64,000 bases of DNA, taken from Xenococcus sp. PCC 7305 (GTDB lineage Bacteria; Cyanobacteriota; Cyanobacteriia; Cyanobacteriales; Xenococcaceae). The position numbers were made by a program, and so were the translations under genes. Positions 49,332 through 59,121 of this stretch are shown piece by piece. The notes beneath the pieces were generated by a model. That model did no database searches, was not told the origin of the DNA, and saw only the letters and a program-made list of their open reading frames with translations. The DNA is taken from NCBI RefSeq assembly GCF_000332055.1, contig NZ_ALVZ01000233.1, positions 1-64,000 of the forward strand. Direction: 5' to 3'. The stretch's first letter is position 1, and each line of letters begins with the position of its first letter.

Positions 49332-52300
49332 TTATATATAACCATCTAAGATTCCTTTTAACGGGTTGCTGGCCTTCCGTTCCCTATCTTGTCCGTAGCG
49401 CCATAATGTAGTACAGGTTCCCAATACGATAAACCAAGTTCCTAGTATGATTAGCCAATTTAAACTAATAGATTGCAAGGTAAGAAATCGCAGCATAAAT
49501 CGAGTTGAGAAAACAACCACAATCGGGAACCAGCAGAAATAAGGAAAAGCCAAGATAGCTAAAAATCTTATCCAATCTTTTTTGGTTTTGGCTCTATCCC
49601 AAACTCCAATACCTATCCCTATTAAACTAAAAACAACAACAACAAATGAAGCTGCCAAAGCACTTTCCAAATATAAAGCAGCAGCAAATAAAGCAGAAAC
49701 AAACAAACTCCAAAAAGTATTATCTTTAATAGTTGAAAGACCAAAAATAGCAAACATACCAGTTGCACCAATAACACCAGCAACATTCGCAACATTCGCA
49801 AGTACAATACTACTAGAAGAAATTACATAACCCGTAATAAACGCGCCAAAAAAGCCAAAAGTATAAAAACCAAAACTAGTAGCAAAGGCAGATTCATTAA
49901 CGAGTGAAATTTCAGCCCAGACTAGATTATCTTTGAACAACCGCTGTATTTTCGTTCCGAAAGTCAAAATTCCAAATAATCCAAGCTGAAGAAAAGTACT
50001 GGGTTTTAATCTTTCTTCAATTCCTTTCCAGAAAGAAACCCAGAAAACAAATAATACATAAATTGGGAATCCCCAAGCAACATTGTTCCAATTATCAGGC
50101 TGACGAAGAACAAGTAAAACTATTTCTGCAATAGCCATAATAGAAGCAATAATTCCCATAGCTAGAACTAATCGATAATGATAGCTACTTTTGAATTGAT
50201 ACTCTATTTCCAAGAATAAGTTACGCCAATCAGAAATATTGGGACGACGCTGATTAGCAAAGCGATTGATTAAATCTAATTGCAATCTTGGTTTTAAAGT
50301 AGATAATATTTTTGACCAGGAAGCACTGGAAAATGGAGTACCTAAAATATGATTAACTTGTTCATTAATTTTTTCCTCTATTTCAGGAGTTTGTTTCTGT
50401 TGTTCTAACAGTGAATCTGTCAGCGAATTCCACTCCGGATCACTTGGAATATTAATCGGATCATGGATAGAAAGTAGAGGAATAATTAAACGTGGGTCTA
50501 GTTGTGGTAAAGAATTAGGCATTAATTCGGTGGGGGTTCTATCCAACATATCAACAATTCGACAGGCAATTATTGATAAGCTCTTGCTTGACGAATCATT
50601 AAATGGTTGCCAAATCCAATCTAGATCTTTTTCATTTTTCTGTTCAGCAGTTAACTCAATATCTTTTAAAGCTTCAGTATTGTCATTTTGAATAAATAAT
50701 TCTGCTAAACTCCAAGCAGCACTAAAACATATAGACTCATCGGGATGCCAAAGAAAAGGAACTAGAGCTATAGATGCATCAGGGGTAGCTATCTTAGTTA
50801 GATCTTGAATAAATTTAATATCTTCCTTTTCAGCTAGAATAGCTAGTTGGGGAACAGCAAGATCTCCCATTCTCACTAAGGATTCCCTGATATTTTCTAA
50901 GCAATTTTTATGATCTTGATCTACTAAATTTTCACAGTATTCTTGCTTTCTCTTATATTCCTGAGCAAGTATTTTGGCTGCTTGAGGTAAATTAGTAAAT
51001 GATAAAGCCTTGGCGGATGCTTGTTGTTTTGATGGACCTGAATTGTCATTAAGAACTGTTTCTAAAAAATCAAATACTGACTTTCGTCGACTGTTTTCTC
51101 GTAAATCAGCCGCAACAGCTCCAAAAGCTTTCGCTAAGTCATCATCAACAATTACTTTTTCTAACTGCTGTTTATAATAATCAATAATTTCATCAGCTAA
51201 GGTTTGCTCTACTTCCTTCGCATCAGCTAAACATTCAAAACCTGTCAGAGCATCATGCTGATGAACTTGCTTAATTAATGGTGTTTTATCTCCAGTCAAG
51301 CCACACCAAAGTTTAACTGTTTCTCGCCAGGTTACGCTATCTTGCTTAAATCTATTGACTAGTTCTTCTTCTTGATTAGATAAGGCTTCGGCTGCAAAAT
51401 ATTCCTGTAACGTGAGGTGAGAAAATTGATATCTTTGTCCTCCATCAATTGGTAATAATAAGCCACTACGATCCACTATTTCAGCTAAGATTGCCTTAGT
51501 CTCTTGTTCTGGATTTAAATTTAGAGAAGGCAACAAAGCTCGAATTTGTTCTACAACTTGTTCATATTCAATATTGCGGCGATCGCGTTCTTGTAAACTA
51601 GCATTATCCTGGGCAAATAAGGCCAATTTTTGTAAAACTCTGCGTTTATGAATTGCTTCAAATTGATTAGGAATCTGTCGTTCTTCATCCCGTAACTTTA
51701 ATAAATGGGTAACAGCTTCTTCATAAAAGGCTGCTCGTGAATGAGGCAAGATAAATTGTTTATCTGCATAGAGATAAGCAATAATTGTTAGAAGTAATGG
51801 ATTACGAGCTAGAGTAATAATTTGTGGGCGATCGCGTAAAGTAGAAATCAGCTGATTAATAGATTTCTCTGGTGGTAATTCTGGTTCCCATACCTTGAGA
51901 AAATTCCGAATCTGGCGATCGCTAAATTCAACAATCTCTAAAGTTTGATCAACACAATTATTAAATTCATTATGATAAACAGCACTACGACAAGTAATAA
52001 TTACAGGACATTGTTCGTAGGTATCCAATAAATCTTTGATTAAATTGATAACGCGATCGCGAACGTTACTATTAACCTCATCCAAGCCATCTAATAACAA
52101 CATCAAATTGCCATTATCCAAGGCTTGACCAATAAAATTCTTAGCCTCAGGAAAATCTTCTCGTTTAAAGGCTTCGACCAATTTCGTTTGTAAATTATCT
52201 ATATCAAACTTTTCTAGTTCGTTTAAGCGATTGAGTTCTAATAAAACAGGTGTAAAGTTAGTTGATATCTTGCTTGATTTTTCGTCTGCCCAAGAAAATG

Positions 52301-53036
52301 CCAAATATTTCAACAACATTGATTTTCCTGAGCCAGGACTACCTTTGATCATCAACCGAGGATATTTACTAATCGCATCAAAAGCATCAATCTGACTATT
52401 ATCTGATTTCCCAGAAACCTTTAACGGCACAAAAATATCCTTCATTTCCAAAGGACGATTGGGACGAAAAGGAATTTTTAATTGTTGATATTTATTAAAT
52501 AAAGAGCCGCGATATCGCTTGAGAGAAACTGACCAGAAAAACTTTAAACCAGAAACTTGATTGTAGAGCCAATCCCCAGTTTTACTATAAAGATTCTCAA
52601 TCCAATTAGTTAGCTTCTCTTTGAGAAAGAATAAGATCCCGACAATTAATGCAATACTCCAACCTAAACCATTAAATAAATTGTCATTGATTTTTTCCCA
52701 GACATCAGCATCCTTGATTTCCTTTAATCGGGTATATTCATCTTCATAAATATTCGCGATTTCTGGCGCAGTTAAACCAAAAGCATTCGTCTCATAAAGT
52801 TTAATTACCAATGATGTGTCCATTGCCTTCTCATTCTGGACATGGCGATTGGCAAATTCTTTAATATCTTCAATCAAAGCTTCGCGATCGCTGTTTTGGG
52901 GATTCTGAGAATAAATCGGCGACGCTAATCCCAACCAAACAGAAATTGCTAAAGACAGCACAAACACACTAACCAATCTTCGCGTTTTGAAACGCTTGCG
53001 CGAAAACTTTTCCCAGAGTCGAACGAACTTGATCAC
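49332..53036 (-). CDS. membrane-anchored NACHT NTPase with HEAT-like and C-terminal transmembrane region
   Basis: A 1234-residue protein. Helix 1 at residues 20-40 (LVSVFVLSLAISVWLGLA) ends in a signal-like ASPIYSQ and helix 2 lies at 122-138; the roughly 80 residues between them could be extracytoplasmic. The NACHT domain follows: Walker A GSPGSGKS at 232-239, Walker B LLLDGLDE at 313-320, PVIITCRSAVY shortly after, and YQFSHLTLQEYFAAEAL near 540 at the end of the module. About 640-870 looks like alpha-helical HEAT/PBS repeats. The C terminus from about 950 has seven or so membrane helices. NACHT proteins in bacteria include anti-phage NLR-like defences and regulatory switches; the membrane region at both ends is unusual. 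The ligand and effector activity are unknown. Confidence 0.87.
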   Translation of the reverse strand: MIKFVRLWEKFSRKRFKTRRLVSVFVLSLAISVWLGLASPIYSQNPQNSDREALIEDIKEFANRHVQNEKAMDTSLVIKLYETNAFGLTAPEIANIYEDEYTRLKEIKDADVWEKINDNLFNGLGWSIALIVGILFFLKEKLTNWIENLYSKTGDWLYNQVSGLKFFWSVSLKRYRGSLFNKYQQLKIPFRPNRPLEMKDIFVPLKVSGKSDNSQIDAFDAISKYPRLMIKGSPGSGKSMLLKYLAFSWADEKSSKISTNFTPVLLELNRLNELEKFDIDNLQTKLVEAFKREDFPEAKNFIGQALDNGNLMLLLDGLDEVNSNVRDRVINLIKDLLDTYEQCPVIITCRSAVYHNEFNNCVDQTLEIVEFSDRQIRNFLKVWEPELPPEKSINQLISTLRDRPQIITLARNPLLLTIIAYLYADKQFILPHSRAAFYEEAVTHLLKLRDEERQIPNQFEAIHKRRVLQKLALFAQDNASLQERDRRNIEYEQVVEQIRALLPSLNLNPEQETKAILAEIVDRSGLLLPIDGGQRYQFSHLTLQEYFAAEALSNQEEELVNRFKQDSVTWRETVKLWCGLTGDKTPLIKQVHQHDALTGFECLADAKEVEQTLADEIIDYYKQQLEKVIVDDDLAKAFGAVAADLRENSRRKSVFDFLETVLNDNSGPSKQQASAKALSFTNLPQAAKILAQEYKRKQEYCENLVDQDHKNCLENIRESLVRMGDLAVPQLAILAEKEDIKFIQDLTKIATPDASIALVPFLWHPDESICFSAAWSLAELFIQNDNTEALKDIELTAEQKNEKDLDWIWQPFNDSSSKSLSIIACRIVDMLDRTPTELMPNSLPQLDPRLIIPLLSIHDPINIPSDPEWNSLTDSLLEQQKQTPEIEEKINEQVNHILGTPFSSASWSKILSTLKPRLQLDLINRFANQRRPNISDWRNLFLEIEYQFKSSYHYRLVLAMGIIASIMAIAEIVLLVLRQPDNWNNVAWGFPIYVLFVFWVSFWKGIEERLKPSTFLQLGLFGILTFGTKIQRLFKDNLVWAEISLVNESAFATSFGFYTFGFFGAFITGYVISSSSIVLANVANVAGVIGATGMFAIFGLSTIKDNTFWSLFVSALFAAALYLESALAASFVVVVFSLIGIGIGVWDRAKTKKDWIRFLAILAFPYFCWFPIVVVFSTRFMLRFLTLQSISLNWLIILGTWFIVLGTCTTLWRYGQDRERKASNPLKGILDGYI

Positions 53037-54147: not shown

Positions 54148-54237
54148 TTAAGAAATGATAAGAAATAATTGAGCAATAAGCAAGAGACCAATAAGAAAGG
54201 AAGACAGAAGAACTAGGACAAAAGCAAAAAATTTCAT
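54148..54237 (-). CDS. 29-residue hydrophobic peptide coupled to the histidine kinase gene
   Basis: An open frame of 29 codons, MKFFAFVLVLLSSFLIGLLL and then IAQLFLIIS with TAA. Its ATG overlaps the kinase stop in an ATGA (54234-54237), and an AGAGG-like ribosome site lies inside the kinase end, five or six bases before the ATG. The product is almost entirely hydrophobic, one membrane helix. I do not recognise it among photosystem or cytochrome b6f small subunits. Translation coupling is the main support; function is unknown. Confidence 0.5.
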   Translation of the reverse strand: MKFFAFVLVLLSSFLIGLLLIAQLFLIIS

Positions 54238-56207
54238 TTAGCCTCTGGTAGAACCACAGGAATTGTAAAGTGAAACTGACTTCCTTGATTTTCCCCCTCA
54301 CTAGTTGCCCAGATAGTGCCACCCATATTCTGAATAATCTGACGACAAATAGCTAAGCCCAAGCCCACACCACTAACGCTGCGACGAAGATAACTTTCTG
54401 TTTGGGAGAAACGATCAAAAACTTTTTCCAATTGTGATGGTTCAATGCCCCTTCCCGTGTCAGCAATGACAATTTCTAAAGTTCGCGCCTCCGAAGACAA
54501 GTTACTTTCTGGGTGATTAATTTTTGCTTGGATCGCAACCTTTCCCGTCTCGGGCGTAAACTTGCAGGCATTGTCTAACAATTTTACTAAAACTTCGACT
54601 AACCCCTCCGCATCTGCGGAAATTATGGGAAGATTTTTGGGTAATTTGGCTTCAATTTCTGGTTTAGCCGCATTTTGATAAATTGATTCTATTCTTCGCT
54701 GGGCTAAGGCGATCGCATAGTCTAATTGTAGAGGCTCAATGCGACGATAGACATTGCCAGTTTCCAATTTAGAAAGAGTTATAAAATCTTGAATCAACTG
54801 ACGTAATCTCTCAGTATCACCGAGCGCCGTGTTTAACATCGCCGTTCTAATAGCAACTGGCATTTCAGGTTCTTCGGCCAAACTTTCTAGAAAAATCCGA
54901 ATTGTCGATAAAGGGGTGCGTAATTCATGCCCGACAATAGCAATTAGATTACTTTGAATTCTTTCAATTATTTCCAATTGATGGTTTAACTCGACTAAAT
55001 CTGTATAAGCACTAGCTTGTGCGATCGCAACCCCCACATTGGTCGAAACAGCTTCTACCAGAGCAATATCCGCCGCTTGCCATTTATGCTCTGCGACTCC
55101 GCCATAATGAATTTCTAACATGCCCAAAAGATTGTCTTGGTAACGGATCGGAATCAGTAACCAACTGCGAATTTGAGCTTGACTGATCTTCGCTTGCAAA
55201 AACTCATTTTTTTTGATGTAAACATTGCTCTCGGCATTATTAATTGCTAAAGCCCCATTAGTTGCTTGAGCCGCCACAAACAGAGGATTATTACTCAGCA
55301 ACCATTTCTCCCCCACTAGAGAAGTCATTTCTGGGGCAGCAGATTCACATTCAATAGTCACAGAACTATCTTGCTCCTTCAACCTATAGAGTAAACAACG
55401 ACAGTGAGGAAATAATTTACCCAATTCATTGACCGTAATCTGTAAAACTTCTTGAGGGTCTAGAGAACTACGCAAAGCAGAAGAAATAGAATTAATTAGT
55501 CGTTCTTTGCGTTCTGCCGTGGCAATAACTTGATAAGCCTTGAATAATTTATACTGTCCTGCCTGTAAATAGGTGACCAGTCTTTGAGTGAAAATCTCTA
55601 AATCTACCGATTGAGTAGCTAGCAGAAACTTTCTAGTGGGAGTTTTCAAGCTCAGATTATATAGTTCCCGAGTTTGCCGCAAATTCTCAGTCAGCTCAGG
55701 ATGGGCAACAGCAATTTTGTCGAGCAACCATTTAGCTGCGGCATGACAAATATTCCGCTCAAACGTCCAAAAAGCTTCAAATCTTTTTCCTTGGTCAATA
55801 AAATCATCATTTTCTCCCTGTTCTCGTCCAATAACACAGGCAGTATACTGTTGACCAACAATAACTAGATGTCTTTCCTCGATCGCAATATCTGTTGCGC
55901 CCAGGGCAATAGCTCGATAATTAGATTGTTTTTCTGTGGTATCTTCGATATCTGATTGTTGGGTAGAATCGACAAAAATATAAATTTGATCCGTTATCTG
56001 GGAAATTCTTTGATAGCGACGCATCTCAGGACGAAAGAATTGTCCTAGACGAAAATTGGCAATGATCAAAGGTGCGTCATCTCCTGCTAAAACTAAGTCT
56101 TCCATCGCACGACATAAGGCCATCAAAGGAGACTTAAAATACATTTGAGGACGTAAATGGGAATAAGCTGTTACTAAATGCTTGAATAGGGATTGATTTT
56201 TAGTCAC
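54234..56207 (-). CDS. DICT-GAF sensor histidine kinase
   Basis: A 657-residue soluble kinase. Residues about 10-220 are a DICT sensory domain (RAMEDLVLAGDDAPLIIANF, RYQRISQITDQIYIF), a module mostly known from cyanobacteria. A GAF domain follows (about 235-395, LLIPIRYQDNLLGMLEIHYG). The HisKA part has the phospho-acceptor histidine near residue 425 in IVGHELRTPLSTI. The ATPase domain shows N-box LLDNACKFTP and G1/G2 boxes in ADTGRGIEPSQ and SGVGLGLAICRQI. It has no membrane helix. No response regulator is adjacent. It is divergent from an ammonium transporter fused to a HAMP-like domain, so it may take part in ammonium or redox signalling; that is inference. Confidence 0.9.
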   Translation of the reverse strand: MTKNQSLFKHLVTAYSHLRPQMYFKSPLMALCRAMEDLVLAGDDAPLIIANFRLGQFFRPEMRRYQRISQITDQIYIFVDSTQQSDIEDTTEKQSNYRAIALGATDIAIEERHLVIVGQQYTACVIGREQGENDDFIDQGKRFEAFWTFERNICHAAAKWLLDKIAVAHPELTENLRQTRELYNLSLKTPTRKFLLATQSVDLEIFTQRLVTYLQAGQYKLFKAYQVIATAERKERLINSISSALRSSLDPQEVLQITVNELGKLFPHCRCLLYRLKEQDSSVTIECESAAPEMTSLVGEKWLLSNNPLFVAAQATNGALAINNAESNVYIKKNEFLQAKISQAQIRSWLLIPIRYQDNLLGMLEIHYGGVAEHKWQAADIALVEAVSTNVGVAIAQASAYTDLVELNHQLEIIERIQSNLIAIVGHELRTPLSTIRIFLESLAEEPEMPVAIRTAMLNTALGDTERLRQLIQDFITLSKLETGNVYRRIEPLQLDYAIALAQRRIESIYQNAAKPEIEAKLPKNLPIISADAEGLVEVLVKLLDNACKFTPETGKVAIQAKINHPESNLSSEARTLEIVIADTGRGIEPSQLEKVFDRFSQTESYLRRSVSGVGLGLAICRQIIQNMGGTIWATSEGENQGSQFHFTIPVVLPEAK

Positions 56208-56521
56208 AAAGTTGCTTAGGGGACGGGGAACGAGGAACGGAAACCAAAAAAGTTATTCTATGAATTTGAGTATAGTCCTTCTTCAATTAATACTAATTAT
56301 TCAAGCTCTCTGGCAGAAAAACTGATGAATCTATACAATAGTCTCACTGAAAATCAAGTTTAAAAACTCTAATACTCGGTTATTGGTATCATTAGCTACA
56401 TTTAAGTCAAATCTGCCCAAAATTGCTGAAGAGAAAGTTACTCTTTCTCGTAAGATCACTATAATTGATTCTATCAAGCGCCACATCATATCAGAAGCAA
56501 AGGAGCAAGCACTAAATTACA
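56208..56521. other. 314-base divergent promoter region between kinase and amt genes
   Basis: No gene is seen; a short open frame from 56383 runs into amt and is not accepted. The region holds GGGGAACGAGGAACGG-type spacer words near 56221 and an NtcA-like box at 56386-56399. Confidence 0.55.
56386..56399 (+). promoter_or_regulatory. NtcA-like binding box upstream of amt
   Basis: GTATCATTAGCTAC matches GTA-N8-TAC exactly. It lies 123 bases before the amt ATG. NtcA activates ammonium transporter genes in cyanobacteria under nitrogen limitation. No TAN3T box at the ideal spacing of about 22 bases was found, and such matches arise by chance about once in 4 kb, so support comes from the neighbouring gene. 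Confidence 0.45.
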
Positions 56522-58225
56522 ATGATCGATCAACTCTGGATATTACTCTGTTCGGGTTTAGTGCTTCTGATGCAAGCAGGTTTTATGTGCCTGGAGTCGG
56601 GCTTAACTCGCGCTAAGAATAGTATCAATGTCGCAGTTAAAAATATTGCTGATTTTGGCATATCAGTAGCCTTATTTTGGGCCTTTGGCTTCGGCATTAT
56701 GTTTGGACTCTCTCAATACGGATTAGTTGGCACTAGCAACTTTTTTCCCTCCGCTGAAGCAGAGCAATCATCGATGATTGTTTTTTTTCTCTATCAAGCG
56801 ATGTTTTGCGGGACAGCAACCACAATTATTTCTGGAGCCATAGCAGAACGCCTCAAATTTAGTGCCTATATCATTATTGCCGTCTTAGTCTCAGGGATGG
56901 TTTATCCTGTATTGGGTCATTGGGCTTGGAATGACAACGGTTGGCTAAAACAGTTAGGTTTTATTGATTTTGCAGGTAGTACGGTAGTTCATGGTGTTGG
57001 AGCCTGGGTCAGTTTAGCAACCTTAATTATCATCGGTGCGCGGCAAGGTCGATTTGGTTCTGCCAAAACCGTCAATAAAATTCAGGGAACCAATTTACCT
57101 TTTGCTGTTCTTGGTGCCTTACTACTTTGGGTAGGCTGGCTTGGTTTTAATGGGGGAAGTACGTTAGCTCTTAATGAACAAGTCCCAGGAATTATCCTCA
57201 ATACTGTATTGTCTGGGGTAGCGGGAATGCTAACTGCAACTTTATGGAGTCAGTTGCACTACGGCAGAATTGAGGTTGAAGAATTAATTAATGGCTCGAT
57301 CGCAGGCTTAGTGGCAATTACTGCCTGTTGTAACCTGGTGGCAACTCCTTTATCTGTGATTATTGGAGCGATAGGCGCGATCGTCGCTCAGTTAGTTTCG
57401 CGGACTCTTCAAAGATGGGGCATTGATGATGCAGTGGATGCGGTGGCAGTTCATGGAGCAGCAGGGGTTTGGGGAACGGCTTGTGTGGCCTTATTTGGTA
57501 AATTGGGGATAATTGACACGGGTTTAAGCCGAATTAGTCAGCTTGGAGTCCAATTACTGGGCATCGCGGTAATTTTTGGTTGTGCTTTTGGCCTAACTTT
57601 AGCCTTACTTAAATCACTAAATTTCTTTTTTGAGTTACGAGTATCTTCTGAAGCAGAACAGTTGGGCTTAAATGTCTCCGAACATCAAGCAAAAACCGAC
57701 ACCTACGAGTTGTTTCAGGTTATGGATCTCCAAGCTAGAACTAATGATTTGAGTTTAAGAGTTCCTGTAGAATCTTTTACCGAGATTGGACATATTGCGA
57801 CTCGCTACAATCAGGTTATGGATTCACTCCAGAAAAATCATCAACAAAGTGCCGAGTCATTAGAAGAACTCTATGCTGTAACCGCAACAGTAATTTCCGC
57901 AGTGGAAAACAAAAAGTTCTCCCCTGAGGATTTTGCTGCTTTTGCCTCTCGTTCTGATGAATTGGGCATTCTGGCACGAGTTCTACAACAAATGGTGGAG
58001 ATGATCAATGCTCAACAGCAGGAGCTGGGGAAAATTCAAGGAGCATTGCAAACATCTGTCGTCCAACAGCAAAATTTAATCATCGAGATTTTAAAAGGTC
58101 GTTTTGATGATATTCCCGAGTCGATTATTAATCAGGTTCAATCTAATCAAGATTTAGATCAATTGTCCTCATTTATGCAGAAGGCGATCGCAATTCCCAA
58201 TTTAGAAGAATTTACCCCTCAGTAG
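56522..58225 (+). CDS. ammonium transporter with C-terminal HAMP-like signalling domain
   Basis: A 567-residue protein. Residues 1-390 are an Amt/Mep/Rh channel with about 11 helices (LVLLMQAGFMCLESGLTRAK at the start, DFAGSTVVHGVGAWVSL, DAVDAVAVHGAAGVWGT with the twin histidine region). The remaining 175 residues are an amphipathic helical region: NDLSLRVPVESFTEIGHIAT resembles a HAMP domain, followed by coiled coil to the end (QQEL, QTSVVQQQ). Amt proteins fused to signalling domains act as ammonium sensors, but no kinase, cyclase or methyl-accepting output is attached here, so output would have to be through a partner. The kinase gene upstream is divergent. The AAGGAG site lies about 17 bases from the ATG, rather far. 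Confidence 0.88.
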   Translation: MIDQLWILLCSGLVLLMQAGFMCLESGLTRAKNSINVAVKNIADFGISVALFWAFGFGIMFGLSQYGLVGTSNFFPSAEAEQSSMIVFFLYQAMFCGTATTIISGAIAERLKFSAYIIIAVLVSGMVYPVLGHWAWNDNGWLKQLGFIDFAGSTVVHGVGAWVSLATLIIIGARQGRFGSAKTVNKIQGTNLPFAVLGALLLWVGWLGFNGGSTLALNEQVPGIILNTVLSGVAGMLTATLWSQLHYGRIEVEELINGSIAGLVAITACCNLVATPLSVIIGAIGAIVAQLVSRTLQRWGIDDAVDAVAVHGAAGVWGTACVALFGKLGIIDTGLSRISQLGVQLLGIAVIFGCAFGLTLALLKSLNFFFELRVSSEAEQLGLNVSEHQAKTDTYELFQVMDLQARTNDLSLRVPVESFTEIGHIATRYNQVMDSLQKNHQQSAESLEELYAVTATVISAVENKKFSPEDFAAFASRSDELGILARVLQQMVEMINAQQQELGKIQGALQTSVVQQQNLIIEILKGRFDDIPESIINQVQSNQDLDQLSSFMQKAIAIPNLEEFTPQ

Positions 58226-58245: not shown

Positions 58246-59121
58246 CTAGGAAATTTCTTTCATCCAGGCAATGCATTCAGTAAGCTGTTGCTGCATAGCG
58301 TGGCGATCGCTATGATAACGACGACCATGACCAGGTAAGACCCATTCAAAAGAATATTCAGTCAGTTTTGCCATCGATTTGATTTGTTCTGACCAAGAAT
58401 AGAAACAGTAACGGGGGAAGGCATTCAAATGTTGCAAATGAGACGACCAGGCTAAATGATCTCCTGTAAACAGAAATTTCTGCTGATAAAGCAAAACTGT
58501 ATGACCCTTGGTATGTCCTGGGACAGGAATAATTAATAAATCATCGGCTAATGCGATCGGCTCAGTTCCCGATACAATAATTTCTACATTTTTTGTTCCC
58601 TCACGAATATCATCTTCATGGAGAATCCGCTCACAACCAAAATGCTGCTGGAATTTTTCGTGATCGGCAACGTCATCTTGATGAGTCAGATATAGATATC
58701 GAATACCGCCCAACTCTTCGAACCTTTTGACTAAAGGTGGTGTGAAACGCGGCGAATCGATTAAAACATTACCATCAGGTCTTTGAATAAAATAAGTAGT
58801 CGCACCAAAGGATTTCTCGGAATGATAACCGCAATGATAGACATTATCTGTGATTAATAAAGGAAAGGTTTGCTGGACAGATTTGATGTCTCGCGGTTTT
58901 TCAACGGTCCCAATAGATGCCGTGGGACAAGATAATAATGCTTGGATTGCTTGTAATCTCGAAGCAGATTCCTGGGGTTGCTGATACACAGCCGATTGGG
59001 TTCCTTGGCGATTAAATATTTCTGGTGCCATCCACCGACAGGTATCGCAATCTATACAACTAGAATCGACATAAAAATCACCGATCGCATTCTCGCTTCT
59101 TCTCTGTTTAAGTGTTGCCAT
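58246..59121 (-). CDS. MBL-fold hydrolase with N-terminal [4Fe-4S] ferredoxin domain
   Basis: A 291-residue fusion. Residues 15-40 hold a single ferredoxin-like cluster motif (SSCIDCDTCRWMAPEIF), with a fourth cysteine near residue 65 in LLSCPTASIG. The rest is a metallo-beta-lactamase fold. The usual HxHxDH is altered to THQDDVADH; later metal ligands are seen in GHTKGHT and FTGDHLAW. Other cyanobacteria have the same fusion. The combination suggests a redox-linked hydrolase or oxidoreductase; no substrate is known. It is convergent with amt, 20 bases apart. Confidence 0.85.
   Translation of the reverse strand: MATLKQRRSENAIGDFYVDSSCIDCDTCRWMAPEIFNRQGTQSAVYQQPQESASRLQAIQALLSCPTASIGTVEKPRDIKSVQQTFPLLITDNVYHCGYHSEKSFGATTYFIQRPDGNVLIDSPRFTPPLVKRFEELGGIRYLYLTHQDDVADHEKFQQHFGCERILHEDDIREGTKNVEIIVSGTEPIALADDLLIIPVPGHTKGHTVLLYQQKFLFTGDHLAWSSHLQHLNAFPRYCFYSWSEQIKSMAKLTEYSFEWVLPGHGRRYHSDRHAMQQQLTECIAWMKEIS

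Follow-up and report, generated by a model that had tools for sequence, protein, structure and literature searches.

An Amt protein without an output domain is associated with an RCK potassium channel gene in cyanobacteria

An Amt Gene Beside a Histidine Kinase Gene

The Amt protein encoded in the window, by which we mean the whole 64,000-nucleotide stretch of Xenococcus sp. PCC 7305 DNA that was analyzed, is associated with a potassium channel of the RCK type; this association is strong and rests on domain anatomy, clade membership, operon conservation, co-occurrence and matching trees. The best reading, which we favor by a little over an even chance, is that the Amt is an ammonium receptor acting in trans on a separate, MthK-like RCK potassium channel. 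A more specific version, a split ligand-gated channel in which an Amt receptor for external ammonium would control the RCK potassium channel in trans via a tandem HAMP tail, is offered tentatively; physical contact between the two proteins, the direction of gating and the physiological purpose are what we infer beyond the association. The initial annotation had paired the Amt with the kinase gene next to it, which we found to be a matter of ordinary proximity; the receptor-channel pair is conserved and functionally unexplored, and the mechanism that we propose for it is hypothetical. The features of the locus are as follows (positions are those of the window).

54234..56207, minus strand: soluble histidine kinase with DICT-CHASE6_C-GAF-HisKA-HATPase_c domains, 657 aa, GTG start (Pfam)
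56208..56521, no strand: divergent intergenic region, 314 bases
56386..56399, no strand: GTATCATTAGCTAC, a match to GTAN8TAC, with class-II spacing to TAAACT in the kinase direction only
56522..58225, plus strand: putative output-less Amt receptor (Amt3-type), 567 aa (Pfam, 18-ortholog alignment, AlphaFold2, tree)
57692..57841, plus strand: HAMP-like segment 1, residues about 391-440, common to fused Amt receptors
57869..58021, plus strand: HAMP-like segment 2 with DELG motif, residues about 450-500, typical of short Amts

Both genes and the gap between them are real, the kinase and Amt open reading frames being divergent with exactly 314 bases between them, as had been annotated. Pfam placed the kinase domains at residues 7-129 (DICT), 137-223 (CHASE6_C), 250-395 (GAF), 418-484 (HisKA) and 532-651 (HATPase_c). 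Elsewhere in the window, positions 49332-53036 encode a large protein of the NACHT STAND type, which contains HEAT-like repeats and whose hydrophobic ends apparently span the membrane, and positions 58246-59121 encode a 4Fe-4S ferredoxin domain fused with a metallo-beta-lactamase fold domain.

The Amt Protein Resembles Ammonium Receptors

In the full-length Amt, Pfam detected a complete Ammonium_transp core (residues 5-391, E 3e-118) and a weak HAMP match besides. The tail, which starts after residue 391 and comprises about 175 residues, yielded two HAMP stretches when scanned alone, the first at about 392-440 and the second at about 450-500, and HAMP was found by Pfam in 15 of 18 Amt orthologs. 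AlphaFold2 (mean pLDDT 80) modeled the tail as helices at residues 394-407, 421-463 and 480-527; connectors break the long helices at two points, the arrangement that two serial HAMP modules should show. The Pfam scan of the tail showed HAMP-like relay segments and no catalytic output domain in cis, so that the earlier description of an Amt lacking an output domain and carrying a HAMP-like tail stands, with a Pfam core followed by two such segments. Matches of fused homologs to the window Amt usually end near residue 438-450, past the first HAMP-like segment, and the second is typical of the short-Amt clade. The C-terminal end (residues about 515-555, window 58066-58190) is weakly DUF4351-like, with E 0.0026 when the tail is scanned alone; some orthologs have it and others lack it.

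The short Amts came out as one clade (SH-aLRT 96, 27 rows) in a tree built from Amt domains. This clade lay within the Amt-HK, Amt-SpoIIE and Amt-MCP fusions, at a long distance from canonical Amts, and in it the window Amt grouped with those of Xenococcaceae MO_167.B52, Waterburya and two further genomes (G008 and G019). Its best PDB match was Sd-Amt1 in both the ON and OFF states (TM 0.93 on target, 44% identity), and the sensor Ks-Amt5 was also among the closest solved structures. By the tree and by the PDB sequence and fold ranking, the Amt core is homologous to characterized receptors rather than to uptake Amts. The annotated role of an ammonium sensor without an output of its own gains support from the placement among fusions and from the structural matches to Sd-Amt1 and Ks-Amt5, and these comparisons likewise support the view that the window Amt would belong to the Amt-sensor clade as an ammonium receptor with no fused output.

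In known Amt receptors such as Ks-Amt5, a fused output is controlled by the binding of ammonium to the Amt core (PMC5764959). The top structural match, Sd-Amt1 of Shewanella denitrificans (PDB 8QJ3, 8QJ4, 8QPF), is an Amt-core sensor, as described from the PDB titles, and Ks-Amt5 of Kuenenia (PDB 6EU6, PMC5764959) shares with the window Amt a sensor-type core and a structural match; the linker past the Amt core is similar to that of the window Amt in both Sd-Amt1 and Ks-Amt5. Ks-Amt5, however, carries its kinase in cis and has no HAMP, whereas the window Amt lacks an output domain and has two HAMP-like segments. The AmtB-GlnK system has the Amt fold and intact pore motifs in common with the window Amt, but canonical Amts form a distant clade and lack the HAMP-like tail. 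Four loci (L203, L147, L152 and L039) encode an Amt fused to an MCP signaling domain (Planctomycetota) or to SpoIIE phosphatases (cyanobacteria), and these fusions represent Amt-receptor outputs other than kinases.

Short Amts Are Linked to an RCK Potassium Channel Gene

In four genomes (G008, G018, G019 and G031), a channel gene lies directly upstream of the Amt ortholog, on the same strand and touching or overlapping it, and encodes a protein of 355-399 aa with Ion_trans_2, TrkA_N and TrkA_C domains (Pfam). From Pfam on close orthologs and an alignment that includes the copy in the window's own genome, the channel consists of a 2TM pore with a GYG filter, RCK_N and RCK_C. These parts are common to MthK, a calcium-gated RCK potassium channel, which the channel matches in sequence along almost its entire length (E about 1e-17); unlike MthK, the Amt-linked channel has the filter FGVGYGE, with Gly replacing Thr, and a gene linked to an Amt.

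The same pattern was seen in each of our samples, which were class-wide (390 genomes), order-wide (245 genomes) and a set of 80 named loci. There were 29 distinct short-Amt loci, 26 of them evaluable, and at 22 of these 26 the channel gene lay on the same strand and at most 400 bases upstream, with gaps of -53 to +227 bases and commonly -4. One further evaluable locus had the channel 3 kb upstream, and three had no adjacent channel (L142, and L145 and L149 from Spirulina). At fused Amts, a channel was found upstream in 0 of 59 loci (short versus fused, Fisher 8e-18, uncorrected for ancestry). Of the 218 good-quality genomes of the order, 52 had the channel, among them all 21 that had a short Amt (co-occurrence Fisher 2e-15, likewise uncorrected for ancestry). 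The channel family occurred in 186 of 390 cyanobacterial genomes and is widespread without an Amt, which implies that it can work alone; in G024, which has a partial Amt ortholog, no channel was found.

The window's genome departs from the operon arrangement: its channel gene (C111:307-1377) and the Amt gene (on C233) are on separate contigs, and the channel is not directly upstream of the Amt on the same strand; only 307 bases lie between the channel gene and the end of its contig. Amt and channel are also apart in G418 and G502. This own-genome channel is 78% identical to the operonic one and nests within the Amt-linked channel clade (support 99), in a position that matches that of the Amt in the Amt tree; the paralog outgroup of the channel tree was poor and its root was not used. 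Distance matrices of Amt and channel were correlated across 20 pairs (r = 0.83, with 0 of 2000 permutations as high), a value that is uncorrected for ancestry and to which species history contributes. The simplest history would be that the two genes were once linked and came apart in the lineage of the window's genome. Since the operon is intact in Picosynechococcus sp. PCC 7117 and in Synechocystis salina, tractable relatives exist.

The pair very probably corresponds to Sll0536 and Amt3 (Sll0537) of Synechocystis, and this orthology to the PCC 6803 pair rests on annotation as a potassium channel homolog and an Amt, on consecutive locus tags and on the operon of Synechocystis salina LEGE 00031 (L144), in which the genes are joined, unlike in the window's genome. 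Sll0536 has been stated to have no known function (PMC13099474), and a 2015 predicted interaction network placed Sll0536 and Sll0537 in one sub-network and left this uninterpreted (PMC4614683). Our literature search found no paper tying an Amt mechanistically to a potassium channel.

A Proposed Receptor-Channel Mechanism and Its Alternatives

The short Amts have no output in cis and are constantly accompanied by the RCK channel, which makes this channel the best candidate for their output. We propose that ammonium at the Amt core would shift the conformation of the trimer, that the tandem HAMP-like tail would relay this change into the cytoplasm, and that the tail would there act on the RCK gating ring of the channel, opening or closing it. 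Since RCK rings take their gating signals from cytoplasmic ligands or partners, an action of the tail on the ring is reasonable. As to purpose, the potassium flux might offset the charge of ammonium entry, or closure of the channel might limit ammonium leak through it. Counting against this reading are the mismatch in symmetry between the Amt, a trimer, and the channel, a tetramer; the separation of the genes in the window's genome, G418 and G502; the three short-Amt loci with no adjacent channel; the failure to find a channel in G024; and the wide occurrence of the channel in genomes that lack the Amt. If true, a transporter-derived receptor would pass HAMP-type signals to a potassium channel; Amt receptors would thereby gain a new kind of output, and nitrogen sensing would be tied to membrane potential and potassium balance. 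The reading also gives a specific, testable role to Sll0536 of a model cyanobacterium and to Amt3, a little-understood homolog of ammonium permeases.

The residues Phe95, Trp136, His157, Phe209, Ser213 and His311 (window numbering), which we take to be the equivalents of the AmtB Phe gate, Trp, Ser and twin-His positions, were invariant in 18 orthologs, and with its pore residues intact the Amt may simply transport. Channel and Amt would then be co-expressed operon partners without signaling, the Amt a working transporter and the RCK channel a means of offsetting charge or ion imbalance, an explanation that we regard as rather unlikely. Expression data are in keeping with it: excess ammonium repressed both sll0536 and amt3/sll0537, given in separate lists, in a 2023 Synechocystis transcriptome (PMC10094980), a result that also speaks for the receptor-channel reading, and nitrogen starvation raises the expression of amt genes (PMC12638213). 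Transport, however, needs neither the tandem HAMP-like tail nor a position in the receptor clade. Moreover, Amt1 provides nearly all of the ammonium uptake of Synechocystis.

We think it quite improbable that the Amt-HAMP receptor serves some other cytoplasmic partner, such as PII/GlnK or a stand-alone cyclase or phosphatase, and that the channel is only co-regulated with it. The outputs of the sister clades, namely SpoIIE phosphatases, kinases and MCPs, would fit such a partner, but it is the channel that recurs beside the short Amts, and no other recurring gene was noticed in the loci that were viewed, unsystematically.

The Neighboring Kinase Is Not a Conserved Partner

The adjacency in the window's genome and the histidine kinases fused to related Amts both speak for the annotated model, in which the divergent DICT-GAF kinase receives the signal of the Amt; the occurrence of the kinase in other genomes does not. 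Each of the 40 relatives that were searched had a kinase homolog; apart from the window's own genome, 12 genomes had one at 54-83% identity, and in the others the identity was near 48%. Across these 40 relatives the presence of a close kinase showed no association with that of a short Amt (p = 0.19). Orthologs of the kinase have other neighbors elsewhere, with no Amt in the eleven orthologous kinase neighborhoods that were read, and none of the other short-Amt loci examined contained a kinase of the DICT-GAF type. G001 is the one further genome of the genus that was compared. There the kinase is intact (83% identical) and persists while the Amt has decayed to a remnant that lacks residues 42-313 and contains a stop (C350:3457-3912, L037); the channel ortholog is absent from this genome, in line with the receptor-channel reading. 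The kinase also has sensory domains of its own.

The window Amt thus has a kinase neither in the same polypeptide nor kept beside it in relatives. The two genes lie apart in related genomes, an outcome that the initial annotation itself had taken to count against the pairing. Because the two are adjacent in none of the other genomes examined, are distributed independently, and the conserved neighbor of the Amt is the RCK potassium channel, we rejected the pairing on the grounds of neighborhoods and distribution; signaling from the Amt to this kinase is very improbable, and the kinase is a coincidental neighbor rather than part of a conserved system.

The NtcA-Like Box and Nitrogen Control

The NtcA consensus described between the two genes, GTATCATTAGCTAC, is present at 56386-56399, but the meaning attached to it did not hold up, as the motif is neither enriched nor conserved. 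The window contains 5 copies of GTAN8TAC where 7.5 would be expected, with an expectation of about 0.1 per 350-base upstream region. Of 26 regions upstream of the Amt-channel pair, 4 carried the motif against 2.5 expected; it is absent from most ortholog upstream regions, and no box was present at the 83% identical kinase gene of G001. A TAN3T -10 element at the right spacing accompanies the window box in the kinase direction only (GTAGCTAATGATAC-N23-TAAACT), with no TAN3T at 20-24 bases after GTAN8TAC toward the Amt. Given its chance frequency, its lack of conservation and a -10 element only toward the kinase, the box is unusable as an argument for nitrogen control of the Amt, and we rejected it as evidence for NtcA control of both genes. 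A sigma-70 promoter scan gave one weak match, at chance level. Nitrogen control, which had been proposed along with the box, is nonetheless plausible for the Amt by analogy with the published expression of its Synechocystis homolog. The channel gene of the window's genome (G000 C111, L057) has a class-II NtcA-like arrangement, GTATCTTTAATTAC-N23-TAGATT, 189 bases upstream, which does not hold across the channel family.

The Channel Filter

In our alignment, nearly all of the Amt-linked and stand-alone channels displayed, among them the member at L034:4534-5601, have the filter FGVGYGE. Its Gly takes the place of the Thr of TVGYG channels and could alter ion selectivity.
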